Origin: Alicyclobacillus contaminans DSM 17975
GTDB lineage: Bacteria > Bacillota > Bacilli > Alicyclobacillales > Alicyclobacillaceae
Direction: 5' to 3'
Assembly (NCBI RefSeq): GCF_000429525.1
Contig: NZ_AUCA01000015.1
Span: 1 to 64,000, forward strand
DNA length: 64,000 nucleotides
The translations under genes and the position numbers were made by a program. This document shows positions 53,655 to 64,000 of this stretch, piece by piece; the first letter of the stretch is position 1, and each line of letters begins with the position of its first letter. Below the pieces are notes generated by a model that worked only from the letters and a program-made list of their open reading frames with translations, was not told where the DNA came from and did no database searches.

Positions 53655-55847
53655 TCATCGGCCAGCGGCACGGATGACGACTAGCTGATGCAGGGCGCGT
53701 GTGCATGCGGTGTACAGCAATCGGCGTTCTTCCGGCGCATATGCGTCAGCGTCGCTGACAATCACGGCGTCGAACTCCAATCCCTTGGCGAGATAGGAAG
53801 GCACCACCACCACGCCCGATTGGAACGTGTCCGCGTTCGCCGTTATCAGATGGACAGACCATCGGCTGGAGAGCGCGCGGTGCATGGATTCCGTGTCGCT
53901 GGCGGTCCGACAGATGACAGCGATGGATGCACTCGATGGCTGGAGCGCCTCCACTGCGTCCGCCACAGCCCTGATGCGCTCCGTCACGGGCACCGAGAGG
54001 ACCTGTGGCGCGTCGCCGCCGCGACGAATGGAATCAGCGACGTCGGGTTCACCGAGCACGTCCGCCGCAAAACGGAGAATTTCGGCTGTGGAACGGTAGC
54101 TCTTGTGCAACCGACAAACGGCCGTTTCCCCTGGGCCGAACAGTTCATCGAGGTGGTGGAACTCGTTCGCCGGCATCAGGGGGTGCACCGATTGATGAAG
54201 GTCACCCAGCACGGTGAATCCGGCGCGCGGAAACAGGCGGCGGAGCGCGTCGTACTGCAGCCGCGTGTAGTCCTGGGCTTCGTCCACCAGCACGTGCCGA
54301 ATGTCCTCGCGGTGCACCGGAGGGAGCATCGCGGTGTACAGGTAGAGGATGGGCATTGCGTCCTCGTACGGAATGGGGCCGCCATCCGCGAGGGCGGCCA
54401 CGGTGTGTCGGCGGATTTCCGCCATTTCGGCCGGCAAACCCAAACCCTGGCTCACCGCGGCGAACGTTTCATCCCGCTCAAACAACTGCCGGTACAACCG
54501 CAGTGGAAGCTCCCGCACTTGGCGCTCGAAGTCGGCGCGGAGTTTGTCCGCTTCGCGCTTCGCCTGGCGGCGGCTCATGTCCTGAATCTCATCGTCGGTA
54601 CCGATGTAGTCGGTTCGCGCCATCCACTTCTCGGTCAGGCGCTGTTGCAGCGCGTCAGACCACTTGCGAAGCGCACCGTCCAGTCTGTCCGCCAGATGCT
54701 GAAAACGCGCGGGCATGCGATAACGGGCCAGGGGCCCGTAGAACCATTCCGCCAGCGTTTCTGCGCGCAGCACCACCTTGCCCCGCAGGCGCAGTGGGGC
54801 AAAGGAAATGCCCCGCCGCGACAGGTGTTCCACATAGCGTTGCATGAGTTCGTAGAAAACACGGCTGAACTTGAGTCGAATGCTCTCGGCTTTGATGGCC
54901 GAGACGCCATCCAGTACGGCATCCAGATGCGCATAGAACGATTCCATCGGGATGTCGAGCGCGTAGGCGCGACGCACATAATCCATGAAAGTGGCCGTTT
55001 GGACGTTATCCTCTCCCAACTCCGGCAGGACGTTCGAGATGTAATCCTGAAAAATCGCGTTCGGGGTGAAAAACAGAACCTGCTGAGAGGCGAGAGATTG
55101 CCGACGTACGTACAACAGGTAGGCAATCCGTTGCAGGGCGACAGACGTTTTGCCGCTTCCTGCGGGTCCCTGCACCACGAACACGCGGTGATCGATATTG
55201 CGAATGGCCTGATTCTGCTCCCGTTGGATGCTGGTCACGATGGAGGTCATTCGTTCATCCGCGTGCTTGGCCAGGAGGGATTGAAGCATATCGTCGCCAA
55301 TGTGCACATCGGTGTCGAACATTCCCTCCAGAGTACGGCCCTGGATGCGGTATTGGCGCTTCAGGATCATTTGCCCCGTCTCTTCACCGAGCGGTGTGTT
55401 GACCGAGAACGGCCCCGGGGTTGCATCGTAATACACGCTGGCAATGGGAGCTCGCCAATCGTGCACCAATATTTTCATATTGTTCGGCCGCCGGATGGTG
55501 GCGATGCCCAGATAGAATGTTTCCGGCGACGGCGTATCTTGAAACCGCAGGTCCATGCGGGCGAAGTACGGCCGGCGTTGAATCTGGTTGTAATGCTCCA
55601 CGAGTCGGTCGAACGTCTCGTAGTCCCGCGACTGGTCCGCCAGGTCGGCCACGTGCTGCGCCTGCAGAATACGGATTTCCTCGCTGGCAGCGTCGTGGCC
55701 CACGTTTTCCCACATGTACCGACGATGCTCCAACAAGTCTTGGAAACGCTTTGACGACGCCTGTGTCGCCCTGGCTTTCGCGGCATCGAGGGTGTCCTGC
55801 ACCTGTTCCAGGTAAGCTTGTTCAAAGTTCCATTCCTTCGCGTCCAT
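53655..55847 (-). CDS. helD: HelD-type UvrD-like helicase/ATPase
   Basis: 730-residue SF1 motor of the class that removes stalled RNA polymerase. An N-terminal coiled arm (about 1-80) is followed by YFARMDLRFQD and VHDWRAPIASVYYDA, typical of HelD. Walker A is FVVQGPAGSGKTSVALQRIAYLLY (about 225-248), Walker B is RHVLVDEAQDYTRLQYDAL, motif III is FTVLGDLHQSVHP, and motif VI lies in LLYTACTRALHQLVV. GGAGGTG lies 5 nt before the ATG at 55847; GTG 55853 overlaps that site. B. subtilis HelD (YvgS) is 774 aa. Divergent from the riboswitch transcript. Confidence 0.92.
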   Translation of the reverse strand: MDAKEWNFEQAYLEQVQDTLDAAKARATQASSKRFQDLLEHRRYMWENVGHDAASEEIRILQAQHVADLADQSRDYETFDRLVEHYNQIQRRPYFARMDLRFQDTPSPETFYLGIATIRRPNNMKILVHDWRAPIASVYYDATPGPFSVNTPLGEETGQMILKRQYRIQGRTLEGMFDTDVHIGDDMLQSLLAKHADERMTSIVTSIQREQNQAIRNIDHRVFVVQGPAGSGKTSVALQRIAYLLYVRRQSLASQQVLFFTPNAIFQDYISNVLPELGEDNVQTATFMDYVRRAYALDIPMESFYAHLDAVLDGVSAIKAESIRLKFSRVFYELMQRYVEHLSRRGISFAPLRLRGKVVLRAETLAEWFYGPLARYRMPARFQHLADRLDGALRKWSDALQQRLTEKWMARTDYIGTDDEIQDMSRRQAKREADKLRADFERQVRELPLRLYRQLFERDETFAAVSQGLGLPAEMAEIRRHTVAALADGGPIPYEDAMPILYLYTAMLPPVHREDIRHVLVDEAQDYTRLQYDALRRLFPRAGFTVLGDLHQSVHPLMPANEFHHLDELFGPGETAVCRLHKSYRSTAEILRFAADVLGEPDVADSIRRGGDAPQVLSVPVTERIRAVADAVEALQPSSASIAVICRTASDTESMHRALSSRWSVHLITANADTFQSGVVVVPSYLAKGLEFDAVIVSDADAYAPEERRLLYTACTRALHQLVVIRAAGR

Positions 55848-56020
55848 GGGCACACCTCCGTGCAGACTCGCATCACCTGTGATGCACCGAACCTTATCTT
55901 AACCGAGTCGTTGCATTCCATAAATCCGTCGTTTCTTCATTCACCTGATTCCGCGGTCATTCAGCTCCGCACCGCGCCACACACCGCGCAAAATCAGCGG
56001 AGGCCACGTGGACCTGCGTG

Positions 56021-56049
56021 TTGCACCGCCCACAGTCTTTTGATAAGAT
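56021..56049 (+). promoter_or_regulatory. Promoter of the c-di-AMP riboswitch transcript
   Basis: TTGCAC (56021-56026), 17 bp, TAAGAT (56044-56049); start near 56056, just where the riboswitch begins. The preceding part of the gap after helD has no other feature. Confidence 0.78.
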
Positions 56050-56057
56050 GGTCACAC

Positions 56058-56192
56058 AATCGGATATTCGCGCTGAATCCCGAATGGGAGCGGGGGACCC
56101 ACGACTTCTGGGGTGAATCCGGCCACGGCTGGTAGGGCAGTCTCTCCTGTCCGAATCCGACAGCTAACTTCGTAAGCGTACCATGAGAGCAC
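56058..56192 (+). ncRNA. c-di-AMP riboswitch (ydaO/yuaA type)
   Basis: The aptamer core is unmistakable: CGCTGAAT, then GGGGGACCCA, TGGGGTGAATCC, GGTAGGGC, CTCTCCTGTCCGAATCCGAC, AGCTAACTTCGTAAGCG and closing GAGAG, in the order and spacing of the ydaO-yuaA class. These sense c-di-AMP and usually turn off cell-wall hydrolase or potassium/osmolyte genes. Its own promoter precedes it and a strong terminator follows 30 nt later. No convincing ORF lies in the next 680 nt on this strand, so the regulated gene is missing or is the distant ilvE. Confidence 0.94.
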
Positions 56193-56221
56193 ACTCGTGT
56201 GTGATGTCTGCATAGACCGTG

Positions 56222-56251
56222 AGCCCCTTCAGTGCAACTGTGGGGGCTTTT
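56222..56251 (+). terminator. Riboswitch expression-platform terminator
   Basis: AGCCCC-TT-CAGT pairs with ACTG-T-GGGGGCT around GCA, followed by TTTTG. Confidence 0.9.
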
Positions 56252-56896
56252 GTTCGTCTTCATCCATTCGCTGTATGGCATTGTGAACGATGGGATTGAC
56301 GAATGGAACGAGTCAGCCTATCGTTGATGGCAAATAAACGAACGTAATGGATGAGGTTTGTTATCAAACAAACGATTTTTTAGTCCTATCGCATTCGTTT
56401 TGTAAAACATATTTACACAGAGACGCGGGTGTGAATTCGGGCAGGCGCAGTCGCTGGCTTAGGCATGTCTTTCATCGTTTTTTCACAATTCCTCTCAATT
56501 CTTCTTCACATCGATAGGTAACCGCTTACACGTCAGAATGCTCCGGATTTCATGCAATTCCGTTGTATTGACCTCCATCGTCCGCATCGGTACAATCACA
56601 ACAACAGCTTTTGCAGTCCCCGCCATGGCGCGGAAAACGCCGCTTCGGCATCCCCAGGGATGGCATTCACCGTCTCGTTGGCAGTGAGGGACTGCAAACG
56701 GTGCAGCAGGCTCAGGAGGGTATCTAGGGTTCCGCTGTGATTTCAACACAGGACAAATTGGACCGAGCGATGCCAGCACCCAATCGGTGTACACCGTGAG
56801 GATAAAAGCCTCCGCGGAAGGTTCTGAACCGGAAAGCCCAGATGGCCGTATGGACGGAACTGAATGCAGAGGTCTCTTTATTTCAATTTTAGTAGT
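56252..56896. other. Non-coding stretch between riboswitch and ilv operon
   Basis: No convincing gene. 56330-56420 is markedly AT-rich against the surroundings and contains GTTTGTT-ATCA-AACAAAC then GA and six T (56356-56381), a second possible terminator. A leftward open frame at 56495-56794 (99 codons) has no ribosome site or recognisable homology; its end (AVVVIVPMRTMEVNTTEL) could be a gene remnant. The inverted-repeat element is listed separately. This may be the grave of the gene once controlled by the riboswitch. Confidence 0.6.
56610..56698. repeat. 89-bp inverted-repeat element with inner hairpins
   Basis: TTTGCAGTCCC (56610-56620) and GGGACTGCAAA (56688-56698) are perfect 11-bp inverted repeats. 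Inside, GGCG/CGCC (56627-56641) and CATCCC-CA-GGGATG (56649-56662) form two more hairpins. It could be a structured RNA or a miniature inverted-repeat element; no target duplication is evident. Confidence 0.5.
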
Positions 56897-56902
56897 TATA
56901 AT
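56897..56902 (+). promoter_or_regulatory. -10 element of the ilv-leu operon
   Basis: TATAAT 26 bp before the ilvE start; the -35 (about TCTTTA, 56875) is poor, hinting at activator need. The leader would be about 20 nt, leaving no room for a T-box. Confidence 0.55.
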
Positions 56903-56928
56903 ATTCCGACATCTGAGGAGGACCTGAC

Positions 56929-57831
56929 ATGGGACAATGGATTTTCATGAACGACCAATTCGTTCCTCGCGAGGAAGCCAAAGTTTCCGTGTTTGACCAC
57001 GGATTCTTGTATGGCGACGGGATTTTTGAAGGAATTCGCTCCTATGACTGCAATGTGTTTCGATTGGGTGCTCACGTGGAACGGCTGTACGAGTCCGCCA
57101 AAACGGTGATGTTGAATATGCCCTATTCGCCGAGTGAAATGGAAGACGTGATTGTTCGAACCTTGCAGAAGAACGAATTAGCAAGCGCCTACATTCGTGT
57201 GGTCGTTTCACGCGGCATCGGCAATCTCGGGCTCGATCCGTTCAGTTGCCAACAGCCTCAGGTGATTGTGATTGCGGAGCAGCTCGCGATGTTCCCGAAG
57301 GAGATGTATGAGTCGGGCACCGCGCTGGTGACGGTGCCGACGCGGCGGAACCGTCCGGATGCGCTGAATCCGAAGATCAAATCTCTGAACTATCTCAATA
57401 ACATTCTCATCCGCATCGAGGCTCATCAAGCGGGAGCGTCGGAAGCGCTGACGCTGAACACCGAGGGATATGTGACAGAGGGGTCCGGTGACAACGTGTT
57501 CTTGGTCAAGCGCGGCGTTTTGTACACGCCTCCTTGCTACCTGGGCGCACTGGACGGCATCACGCGGCGCGCGGTCATGGAAGTGGCGGAAAAATCGGGG
57601 TACGTGGTGAAAGAAGAGCCTTTCACGCTGCACGATGTGTACAACGCGGACGAGGTCTTCCTGACCGGTACAGCGGTGGAGATCATGCCGGTGATTCGTG
57701 TGGACAGCCGGCAGATTGGAACGGGGAAACCGGGGCCGCATACGTTCCGGTTGCTGGAAGAGTTCCGCAAGTTGACGAGGACGGACGGTGTGAAATACAC
57801 GCTGAATAACGTGCATGCAGAATTGGCGTAA
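56929..57831 (+). CDS. ilvE: Branched-chain amino acid aminotransferase
   Basis: 300-residue fold-type IV PLP enzyme for the last step of Leu, Ile and Val synthesis. [25 protein letters not shown] starts the family pattern; the PLP lysine is in [30 protein letters not shown] and [13 protein letters not shown] bind cofactor and substrate; [14 protein letters not shown] ends the core. GGAGG lies 7 nt before the ATG. First gene of ilvE-D-B-N-C-leuA, 13 nt before ilvD. Length is normal. Confidence 0.95.
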
Positions 57832-57844
57832 AGGAGTTTTACAG

Positions 57845-59515
57845 ATGCGCAGCGACATGATCAAAAAGGGTGTCGATAGGGCGCCTCACCGAAGTCTGCT
57901 GTATGCCACAGGGCTGGTCAAACCGACGGATTTGCCGAAACCGTTCATCGGGGTCTGTAACTCGTATGTGGATATTGTGCCGGGCCACGTTCATCTCCGC
58001 GAACTGGGCGACGTTGTGAAGCAGGCCATTCGCGAAGCCGGTGGCATTCCGTTCGAATTCAACACCATCGGGGTGGACGACGGCATCGCGATGGGGCACA
58101 TCGGCATGCGATACTCGCTGCCGAGCCGCGAGCTGATTGCCGATGCCGCCGAGACGATGATCCAAGCGCACTGGTTTGACGGCATCTTCTTCATGCCGAA
58201 CTGCGACAAAATCACGCCCGGTATGCTGATGGCGGCCGTTCGTGCTAATGTGCCTGCGGTATTTGTCTCCGGGGGGCCGATGGCGGCGGGCAGGGCCAAG
58301 AACGGTAAACAGCTGTCCCTCACTTCCGTGTTCGAAGGTGTGGGCGGCTACAAATCCGGCCGCATCACGGCGGAGGAGTTGCAGGACATCGAATCCAACG
58401 CGTGTCCGACGTGCGGCAGCTGTAGCGGAATGTTCACCGCCAATTCGATGAACTGCATCATGGAGATGCTGGGAATTGCGCCTCCGGGAAACGGTACTGT
58501 ACTCGCAGTATCCGAACAGCGAAAAGACCTCATTTTTGAAGCCGCACGCCACCTGATGCGCCTCATTGAGCAGGACGTGCGTCCACGCGACATCATCACC
58601 GCCGAAGCCATCGATGACGCGTTTGCTCTCGACATGGCGATGGGCGGCAGCACCAACACGGTCCTGCACCTCCTGGCGATTGCGCACGAGGCGGGCATTG
58701 ACTACAGCCTCGAGCGCATCAACGAGATCGCCAAGCGCGTCCCGTACTTGGCCAAAATCAGCCCGGCCTCGGACTACTCGATTCACGATGTCCACCTGGC
58801 CGGTGGCATCCAGGCCATCATCCACGAACTGTCCCAGATTGACGGGGCCATCCACCCAGATCGAATCACCATCACCGGACGAACCATCGGCGAAAACGCC
58901 GCGAATGCGGAAATCAAGAATCCGGAGGTCATTCGCCCCCGACACAATCCGTACAGCCCTGTCGGCGGACTATCCATTCTCTATGGCAACCTGGCTCCGG
59001 ACGGCGCGGTCATTAAAGTGGGCGCAGTCGATCCGAGCATCAAACGGTTCGAAGGCACCGCCATTGTGTTCGATTCCCAGGACGCCGCGCAGCAGGGCAT
59101 TGACAACGGCAGCGTCCGACCGGGACATGTGGTGGTCATCCGCTACGAAGGGCCGAAGGGCGGCCCGGGAATGCCGGAAATGTTGGCGCCGACGTCGTCC
59201 ATTGTCGGACGGGGACTCGATACGGACGTGGCCCTCATCACGGACGGCCGATTCTCCGGTGCCACGCGGGGCATCTGCGTTGGCCACATCTCGCCGGAAG
59301 CAGCGGAAGGCGGGCCCATCGGTCTGATAGAGGCCGGAGACCGGATTGTGATTGATTTGGAAGCGAGGACGATTGAACTCTGCGTCAGCGACGAGGAACT
59401 GGCGGCGCGTAGAGCGCGGTTCACTCCGCCGGAACCCAAGGTCAATTTCGGCTATTTGAAGCGCTATGCCCAGTTGGTCACTTCGGCCAATACGGGCGGC
59501 GTGTTGAAAGCATAA
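57845..59515 (+). CDS. ilvD: Dihydroxy-acid dehydratase
   Basis: 556-residue Fe-S enzyme dehydrating 2,3-dihydroxy-isovalerate and -methylvalerate to the 2-keto acids. Cluster-binding Cys sit in [28 protein letters not shown] and [51 protein letters not shown] and [19 protein letters not shown] are family signatures. AAGGAG lies 8 nt before the ATG at 57845; an in-frame start at 57815 would overlap ilvE. Full length. Confidence 0.96.
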
Positions 59516-59552
59516 ATGCACAGGGCAAGACGCCCAACGAGGAGGGATGGCG

Positions 59553-61280
59553 ATGCAGACCAATTCCGTCGAAGCGCAGACGGCAGAACGACAGGTGGCG
59601 CACCGCGAGATGACCGGTGCCGCCATGTTGGTGCAGGCGCTCAAAGAAGAGGGGGTGGAGGTCCTGTTCGGATATCCGGGCGGGGCTGTGCTGCCCATCT
59701 ACGACGCGCTCTACGGGTGCGGAATTCGCCACATTCTGACTCGTCATGAGCAGGGTGGCATTCATGCGGCGGAAGGCTATGCGCGCGTGACCGGCAAGGC
59801 TGGGGTGGTGATTGCCACGTCCGGACCGGGGGCCACCAACCTGATCACGGGTATCACAGATGCCATGATGGATTCCCTGCCGCTGGTGGTCATCACCGGC
59901 CAGGTCAGCACGTCCGTGATTGGCTCGGACGCGTTCCAGGAAGCGGCCATCCTGAGCATCACGATGCCTGTCACCAAGCACAATTATCAGGTGCGGCGCG
60001 TGGAAGACCTACCTCGCATCATCAAGGAGGCATTCCACCTCGCCCAAAGTGGGCGCCCGGGACCGGTGTTGATTGACATTCCCAAAGATGTTTCCAACGC
60101 GGTGGGGCTGTTCTCCTACGAAGAGCCCGTGCATCTCCCCGGCTATCAGCCGACGTTTATCCCCAATCGTCTGCAGATTCGAAAGGTTGCAGAAGCAATT
60201 CGGCACGCGGAGAAACCCGTGCTGTTGGCGGGGGCCGGCGTGATTCACGCAGGCGGACACGAGGTGTTGCGGACGTTCGCGGAGCAGGCGCGCATCCCGG
60301 TGGTGAACACCCTGCTCGGGCTGGGCAGCTTCCCGGCAGACCATGAACTGTTCCTCGGCATGGGCGGCATGCACGGCACATACGCAGCCAACATGGCCAT
60401 GTATGAAGCGGATTTGCTCATCAATGTCGGCGCGCGGTTTGATGACCGACTGACGGGCAACTTGGCGCACTTTGCTCCCTCCGCCAAGGTGGTTCACATC
60501 GATATCGATCCGGCCGAGATTGGCAAGAACGTCTTCACCGATATTCCGGTGGTGGGCGATGCTCGGGCGGCGTTGGAGATGTTGTTGGAGGAACTGGCGG
60601 CTCCGAGCTCATCGGAAGCTTGGATTGGATATTTGCAAGGGTTGAGACGGGACTTCCCGCTCTGGTACGAGCGGGCCGGGCAGGTGCTGAAACCACAGTT
60701 CGTGGTGGAATCCATTCACCGGTTGACGAAGGGAGACGCGATTGTGGTCACCGACGTGGGCCAGCACCAGATGTGGGCGGCGCAGTACTACGGAATGAAC
60801 CGGCCCAACCGTTGGGTGACCTCGGGAGGGCTTGGCACCATGGGGTTTGGTTTGCCCGCGGCCATCGGCGCGCAAATCGCCAGCCCGGATTCGACGGTGT
60901 GCGCCATTCTCGGCGACGGCGGCTTCCAAATGACGTTGCAAGAGCTGTCCGTGTTGGTCGATTATCAACTGCCTGTGAAGGTGGTGATTCTGAACAATCA
61001 GGCGCTCGGCATGGTCCGTCAGTGGCAGGAGTTGTTCCACGGTGCGCGCTATTCGGAGTCGCTGCTGTCCAGCTCACCGGACTTCGTCAAACTGGCGGAT
61101 GCGTACGGCATTCCGGGCCGTGTGGTGACGTCGCCGGGCGACGTGGAACGCGTGCTGGCCGAGGCGTTCGCCCATCCGGGGCCCGTGTTGGTGGAGTGCA
61201 GGGTGGCGCCGGATGAAAACGTGTATCCGATGATTGCGCCCGGCAAGGGATTGCACCAGATGGAGGGGGTGAAACCGTGA
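59553..61280 (+). CDS. ilvB: Acetolactate synthase, large (catalytic) subunit
   Basis: 575-residue ThDP enzyme condensing pyruvate with pyruvate or 2-ketobutyrate. The N-terminal domain has the ThDP-activating Glu in [15 protein letters not shown] and [13 protein letters not shown]. The central domain binds FAD ([34 protein letters not shown]). The C-terminal [24 protein letters not shown] holds Mg-ThDP. GGAGGG lies 6 nt before the ATG at 59553; ATG 59547 directly abuts it. The stop overlaps the ilvN start (GTGA). The anabolic type with its regulatory partner gene next door. Confidence 0.96.
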
Positions 61281-61807
61281 TCCGTATCATCACCGTGATT
61301 GTCAACAACAGAACCGGGGTCCTGAATCGCGTGACCGGATTGTTTCTGCGCCGAGGCTTCAACATTCAGAGCATCACGGTGGGAACCACGGAAACCGAGG
61401 AACTGTCGAGAATGACCATTCTCCTCGACGTGGACAGCGAGCGCGATGCTGAACAGGTGATCAAACAGCTGCACAAACAGATTGACGTCATTAAAGTGTC
61501 CGACATTACGGACCAATCCATCATCGCCCGGGAGCTGGTGTTGCTCCGCGTGAACAGCCCGCTGTCGACGCGGGCGGAGATATTCACGCTGATAGAACCG
61601 TTCCGCGCGACCGTGGTGGATGTGACACGGGAGAGCATCACCATTCAGGCGACCGGTCACCCGGACAAGATTGAGGCGTTGGTGAGCCTGCTGCGCCCGT
61701 ACGGCATCAAGGACCTGGCAAGGACCGGCGTCACGGCGTTTCCGCGCGAGACCGATAAAGCGGCGGACGGGAATGCCATCCGGCGGATGCAGTTGCTGCC
61801 GTTGTGA
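61277..61807 (+). CDS. ilvN: Acetolactate synthase, small (regulatory) subunit
   Basis: 176 residues. An N-terminal ACT domain (about 1-75, [35 protein letters not shown]) binds valine for feedback inhibition. The C-terminal ALS_ss_C domain (about 80-160) has [33 protein letters not shown] and [18 protein letters not shown]. The start GTG overlaps the ilvB stop, so the subunits are translationally coupled. Also called ilvH in Bacilli. Confidence 0.95.
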
Positions 61808-61817
61808 GAAAACCTGA

Positions 61818-64000
<2,183 letters not shown>

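Follow-up and report, generated by a model that had tools for sequence, protein, structure and literature searches.

The window analyzed here, a stretch of 64,000 nucleotides from Alicyclobacillus contaminans DSM 17975, includes an ilv operon of five forward-strand genes: ilvE (56929-57831; NCBIfam NF006185 and TIGR01122), ilvD (57845-59515; TIGR00110), ilvB and ilvN, encoding the large and small subunits of acetolactate synthase (59547-61280, TIGR00118, and 61277-61807, TIGR00119), and ilvC (61866-62909; TIGR00465). Divergent from this operon, on the reverse strand, is a gene for a UvrD/HelD-like helicase of 732 amino acids (53655-55853), an ORF that matches the Pfam domains UvrD-helicase and UvrD_C_2. 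The region between ilvE and the helicase gene contains, all on the forward strand, a c-di-AMP riboswitch leader, a spacer, and a second promoter and riboswitch adjoining ilvE.

The aptamer of the c-di-AMP (ydaO/yuaA) riboswitch occupies positions 56061 to 56194. It matches RF00379 with a score of 96.3 bits (gathering score 38, E 1.6e-21) and no non-canonical pairs are marked in the alignment; the only other Rfam match above cut-off in the window is to 5S rRNA. An intrinsic terminator (56221-56254) follows, consisting of a hairpin at 56221-56249 and a TTTTGTT tract. Its folding energy of -18.1 kcal/mol was reached by none of 60 shuffled sequences (fold z -2.67). Upstream of the aptamer lies promoter P1 (56021-56049), which reads TTGCAC-17-TAAGAT. 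The -35 element (56021-56026) is poor, with matches to TTGACA at 3 of 6 positions; the -10 element (56044-56049) is preceded by TG, and the score of the whole was equalled by 12 of 500 mononucleotide shuffles of a 114-nt stretch. Judged by its sequence, P1 is a passable extended -10 promoter. A preliminary description of this DNA had reported a complete aptamer, promoter and terminator with no gene behind them. Aptamer and terminator are as it described them, and its promoter stands as an extended -10 element with a weak -35. Given the aptamer score, the promoter, the terminator and the intact core of the aptamer, the observation of an orphan c-di-AMP leader holds.

The conserved core of the orphan aptamer was compared with those of 68 other aptamers. 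Among these, 37 positions are conserved in 90% or more, and the orphan departs from none of them; such intactness is common, since 46 of all 69 aptamers show it. With its nearest relative, L056, the orphan shares only 60 of 93 variable positions, and the preservation of the core despite this divergence suggests that the aptamer was under selection until recently. An old, decayed leader was rejected in view of the 37 intact positions, though such intactness is common. A mobile element was also considered and rejected, as no direct repeats of length 12 or more surround the c-di-AMP leader, and a hairpin further downstream, at 56605-56703, is present as a single copy in the genome.

In its score far above cut-off, its conserved core and its terminator placed after the aptamer, the orphan resembles other members of the RF00379 class. 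It differs from them in its imperfect antiterminator pairing, described below, and in the stretch of 680 nt after the terminator, which is free of genes. A regulated gene downstream is usual in this class, although the aptamer is not defined by it. The ATG of ilvE, at 56929, lies 735 nt from the aptamer and, as had been noted earlier, 680 nt past the end of the terminator hairpin at 56249. Positions 56255 to 56567 form a spacer without a recognizable gene. It includes two weak terminator-like hairpins ahead of U-tracts, at 56356-56373 (-4.1 kcal) and 56431-56475 (-10.6 kcal), and no strong terminator was found between 56255 and the second riboswitch. None of seven ORFs of 46 to 105 amino acids in and around the interval matched Pfam at E <= 1.

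The rarity of this situation was assessed in a census of 128 c-di-AMP switches. The 41 genomes of the family gave 298 matches, from which the census took all those in G000 and in the sister species (G001) and, for the other genomes, those with the highest scores; genes were predicted by a simple codon-usage caller. Not counted were five duplicates (L059, L156, L167, L173 and L175) and L079, which lacks the core motif. By these gene calls a same-strand gene begins within 600 nt downstream of 126 of the 128 switches, although some calls are short and weak, above all the 58-aa call at L007, and that at L021 lies at exactly 600 nt. Seven switches were flagged, five of them (L165, L199, L208, L217 and L221) only on account of an opposite-strand call; each of these five has a strong same-strand gene at 218 to 480 nt. 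By the census calls, gene-less c-di-AMP switches are thus rare, with two clear cases among the 128, the orphan and L161. To account for such an exception, a loss or a relocation has to be invoked.

L161 (G029:C22:129834-129990, reverse strand) has no convincing same-strand gene and points into the 3' end of a convergent amino-acid ABC operon, which itself starts behind another c-di-AMP switch, L163. Five ATG ORFs of 63 to 124 amino acids are found on the strand of L161 from 716 nt onward, beneath the opposite-strand transporter genes. All 37 core positions are intact in its aptamer. The terminator-like hairpin of L161 is a weak one, at -6.3 kcal. L161 is not close to the orphan by gapped length (157 and 134 nt), and its context differs. 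At L007/L175 (G001:C2:106864-106997, forward strand), a c-di-AMP switch of 117 bits has no strong gene for about 600 to 830 nt; between the switch and an IreB gene further on there are only an ORF of 58 amino acids and a hairpin that precedes a U-tract.

We searched the interval downstream of the orphan for traces of a former target. A set of 517 ORF pieces, taken from the loci of other switches (L002-L024 and L056-L084), scored at best 20.8 bits against positions 56196 to 56935, compared with 27.7 bits against the reversed stretch, and same-strand hits numbered 82 on the real stretch and 79 on the reversed one. A Usp protein used as a query against the interval after the c-di-AMP switch gave nothing at E <= 1. 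A remnant of a known target gene was rejected on these grounds, the reversed stretch having outscored the real one and the Usp query being empty. The claim of the preliminary description that no target gene is present is therefore borne out by the Pfam search, the remnant search and the exceptional position of the orphan in the census. In a tree of 52 aptamers, the orphan joined with L016 (90/94) and then with L056 and L057. L016 and the orphan have no common flank beyond the aptamer and form a long branch that was flagged as unsafe, and no origin from a particular target was drawn from the tree. An unknown protein, designated A, had no match in two genomes of the genus, in a search that carried no positive control there.

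The c-di-AMP regulon as a whole differs strongly between A. contaminans and its sister species. The genome studied here has 6 c-di-AMP switches and that of the sister species 18, and a ProP-type transporter that is led by a switch in the sister species has no close homologue in the genome studied here (best match 31% identity, against 100% for the control).

The stretch that adjoins ilvE can be explained without the c-di-AMP switch, because the operon has its own promoter and riboswitch. Promoter P2 (56568-56596, forward strand) reads TTGACC-17-TACAAT and occurs at the same place in the sister species. Since P2 and the riboswitch described below both lie in the gap and both recur in the sister species, ilvEDBNC possesses a control region of its own. 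That ilvE has its own -10 was proposed in the preliminary description, and the operon does have its own promoter. The element intended there was probably the TATAAT at 56897-56902, as judged from the end coordinate given; the sister species lacks this word, and the alignment places the promoter common to both species at P2. The earlier observation is sound except in where it put the ilv -10, and we regard it as partly confirmed. Upstream of P2, the word GTAACCGCTTACA (56518-56530) resembles the motif of a CcpA cre site and is a candidate for one; similar words occur upstream of ilvE in L026, L029 and L030. Between P2 and the ilv riboswitch, the forward-strand hairpin at 56605-56703 has arms of 16 nt (fold z -1.73) and is absent from the sister species.

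The riboswitch of the ilv leader was missed by the earlier reader, and a default Rfam scan does not show it because it falls under the cut-off. A permissive scan of positions 55850 to 57000 gave a ykkC-class match at 56713-56818 to RF00442 (Guanidine-I), with 43.1 bits and E 3.9e-6, the family cut-off being 63. RF00442 matches in the 41 genomes of the family fall by sequence and neighbors into guanidine-type elements, guanine/PRPP tandems, NUDIX-associated elements and elements preceding ilvE. A purine aptamer stands directly before the RF00442 match in 11 loci of the tandem group, one of them truncated; the elements preceding ilvE are those of the window, G001 and G029. Guanidine-I aptamers are distinguished from ykkC subtype 2 by an adenosine in place of a pyrimidine, and PRPP aptamers by a guanosine, G96 (PMC6031431). 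At the first of these positions, located by eye, all 7 guanidine-type elements have A, whereas C is found in 3 of 3 ilv elements and in 10 of 10 elements from guanine/PRPP tandems. At the place of G96, likewise located by eye in a comparison of 8 PRPP-type rows together with L107 and L111, the ilv elements have no G, reading GCCTC[CT]GCG where the PRPP-type elements read GCCC[AG]G[AG]. A P0 helix closes the ilv aptamer, pairing TCAGGA with TTCTGA in the window and TCAGAA with TTCTGA in G029, and with P0 included the aptamer extends from 56712 to 56829 on the forward strand.

The genes associated with these elements agree with the published neighbors of ppGpp riboswitches, which include branched-chain amino acid genes, glutamate synthases and natA transporters (PMC5912903). 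A search with model R1, built from the three ilvE elements as seeds (that of the window being one of them), was run on 59 genomes of the order; G033 and a second family also proved to have an element preceding ilvE. Of 17 R1 loci inspected, 10 stand before ilvE and 4 before glutamate synthase, and one lies ahead of an ABC gene that by eye is NatA-like; L250 precedes ilvE by coordinates, and L249 runs into a contig end. A terminator that overlaps the 3' strand of aptamer helix P3 follows the element in all three seeds, with energies, for the stretches folded, of -26.7 kcal in the window (56808-56884, forward strand), -38.6 kcal in G001 and -23.4 kcal in G029. From the subtype features, P0, the gene neighbors and the overlapping terminator, we call the element at 56712-56829 a predicted ppGpp riboswitch of ykkC subtype 2a. 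It is like known members in its ykkC core, its P0, its lack of a G at the G96 place and its position before ilvE, and differs in nothing of note beyond the sub-cut-off Guanidine-I score.

The arrangement of a c-di-AMP switch upstream of this ilv leader is not conserved. The ilvE gene and leader of the sister species G001 match Alicyclobacillus pomorum DSM 14955. G001 has the same divergent helD-like and ilvE neighbors and the same ilv leader, with P2 and the ppGpp-type element, but the c-di-AMP switch is absent, and none was found in its 520-nt spacer even at E <= 10. Nor was a c-di-AMP switch found at E <= 0.05 within the stored flanks of 29 other ilvE loci fetched, near ten further ilvE matches among the matches listed, or above cut-off within the available flanks of the 17 ppGpp-model loci. 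The explanations offered in the preliminary description were a decayed target, a free c-di-AMP-binding RNA, or read-through that ties branched-chain amino acid synthesis to c-di-AMP. The absence of a target is supported here, but a conserved link between c-di-AMP and ilv is not, because the sister species keeps the ilv leader and its neighbors without the switch. A possible parallel in G007, where about 680 nt separate a c-di-AMP switch from a guanine/PRPP tandem downstream of it, was considered and rejected, since a Usp gene stands between the two. That locus (G007:C1:672839-674674) carries two c-di-AMP switches, the Usp gene and the guanine/PRPP tandem within about 2 kb of one strand.

Whether the orphan leader can still switch depends in part on its antiterminator. 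As in its RF00379 relatives, a C-rich 5' arm of the terminator faces a G-rich aptamer core. In the relatives an arm of CCCCCG[UC] or similar can pair with a core of [AG]CGGGGGA, which provides a ready antiterminator. In the orphan the arm CCCCUUCA can pair with the core AGCGGGGGA as a candidate antiterminator, but with one mismatch. Among 29 leaders in which arm and core could both be lined up, this pairing (-9.3 kcal) ranks 22nd, with 21 stronger, and it is no better than in shuffled controls. The terminator of the orphan may therefore be nearly constitutive, which we take as suggestive only. Five leaders with a CGGAGG core, of the Usp type or related, are interrupted as well and score slightly below the orphan, so an interrupted pairing is by itself no proof that switching has been lost.

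The chances appear about even that the leader is a ligand-competent c-di-AMP sensor stranded upstream of ilv, predicted to yield a short terminated RNA together with some read-through. P1 would direct synthesis of an RNA of about 200 nt, most of it stopping at the terminator and a still larger share with c-di-AMP bound, while some transcription from P1 would read through into the spacer and the ilv leader. Control of the ilv operon would rest with P2 and the ppGpp riboswitch, open when ppGpp is bound; the direction of each switch, closed by c-di-AMP and opened by ppGpp, is assumed by analogy with known members of the two classes. The gene once led by the c-di-AMP leader would no longer adjoin it, or may never have done so, either through recent loss or because the leader itself moved, and the leader would now have no function under selection. 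This account is favored by the aptamer and terminator themselves, the lack of a remnant, the rarity of orphans, the differing regulons, the ilv leader of the sister species, which has P2 and the ppGpp element but no c-di-AMP switch, and the mismatch in the antiterminator. Against it are the intact aptamer, a promoter and terminator that look intact as well, and the need for a clean loss of a gene without trace. A leftover leader is in our judgment the most likely meaning of this stranded sensor, an additional layer of control being less likely.

Such an additional layer would take the form of a second, lineage-specific ilv promoter gated by c-di-AMP, with transcripts from P1 running about 460 nt to the ppGpp switch and on into ilvEDBNC, so that expression from P1 would require the absence of c-di-AMP AND the presence of ppGpp, on top of transcription from P2. 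We hold this to be unlikely but worth retaining. The aptamer is intact, both switches are on the same strand with no gene between them, and no strong terminator intervenes. In Bacillus subtilis, moreover, low c-di-AMP allows apo-DarB to raise (p)ppGpp through Rel (PMC7900238); because DarB stimulates (p)ppGpp synthesis under these conditions, both gates could open together. The same source reports that (p)ppGpp inhibits c-di-AMP breakdown, which would instead close the first switch. Also against such a gate, P2 stands between the two switches, the c-di-AMP switch is absent from the other ilvE and ppGpp-model loci surveyed, the antiterminator is imperfect, and the two weak hairpins of the spacer precede U-tracts. 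Tandem leaders that combine Na+ with c-di-AMP sensing, or a T box(Leu) with ppGpp sensing, are known (PMC9481103, PMC9337991). The present leader resembles these logic gates (Na+-I/c-di-AMP and T box(Leu)/ppGpp) in that a single operon is preceded on its strand by a pair of aptamers with one terminator apiece. It differs in that P2 lies between the switches and the pair is not conserved; a longer transcript from P1 could nevertheless pass both. A c-di-AMP/ppGpp pair is absent from the Table 2 passage of a review of tandem riboswitches (PMC9481103), within a narrow search of the literature. It is somewhat more doubtful still that the two second messengers act in series, branched-chain amino acid synthesis being raised only when c-di-AMP is low, reflecting the potassium or osmotic state, and ppGpp is high, reflecting starvation; such a circuit would be an RNA counterpart of the DarB-Rel link.

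The terminated transcript of about 200 nt could itself be the product, a stand-alone RNA that buffers c-di-AMP or acts in trans. The promoter and terminator of its own and the conserved core agree with this idea, as does the existence of a second gene-less switch, L161, with an equally intact core. With only 2 clear cases among 128 switches, and with L161 neither closely related to the orphan nor similar to it in context or in the strength of its hairpin, we consider a stand-alone RNA improbable. Still less credit is due to an error of assembly or sequencing that dropped or broke a gene in the interval. The assembly is a draft in 111 contigs, and the species yielded no second genome for comparison, but the interval lies inside a contig of 71 kb, P2 and the ppGpp element follow in register with their counterparts in the sister species, and a coding remnant was not found.

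These results set a real oddity, a gene-less c-di-AMP aptamer that looks to be in working order, apart from an ordinary element that had been missed, the ppGpp riboswitch of the ilv operon. Should the c-di-AMP leader prove to gate ilv, the locus would be a natural RNA circuit for c-di-AMP and ppGpp. A stranded leader would represent a rare snapshot of the loss of a riboswitch regulon, and a warning that aptamer matches alone do not define targets.

The census also revealed two groups of proteins downstream of c-di-AMP switches. An ORF of about 45 to 60 amino acids with the conserved motif xPELPxxxRD[LM]EI follows 31 of the 128 switches (for example L002, L011, L160, L190 and L211), and in 23 of these 31 cases the next gene is rplS, encoding ribosomal protein L19. 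Two members of this group were scanned against Pfam and NCBIfam without a match; the ORF appears to encode a small protein that has escaped annotation and is controlled by c-di-AMP. Two scanned members of the other group likewise had no Pfam or NCBIfam match. This group consists of an unknown protein of about 145 to 197 amino acids with the motif GE[FY]xLA[SA]VVQDSL, which is preceded by a c-di-AMP switch at nine loci (L056, L057, L061, L063-L065, L067, L068 and L070).
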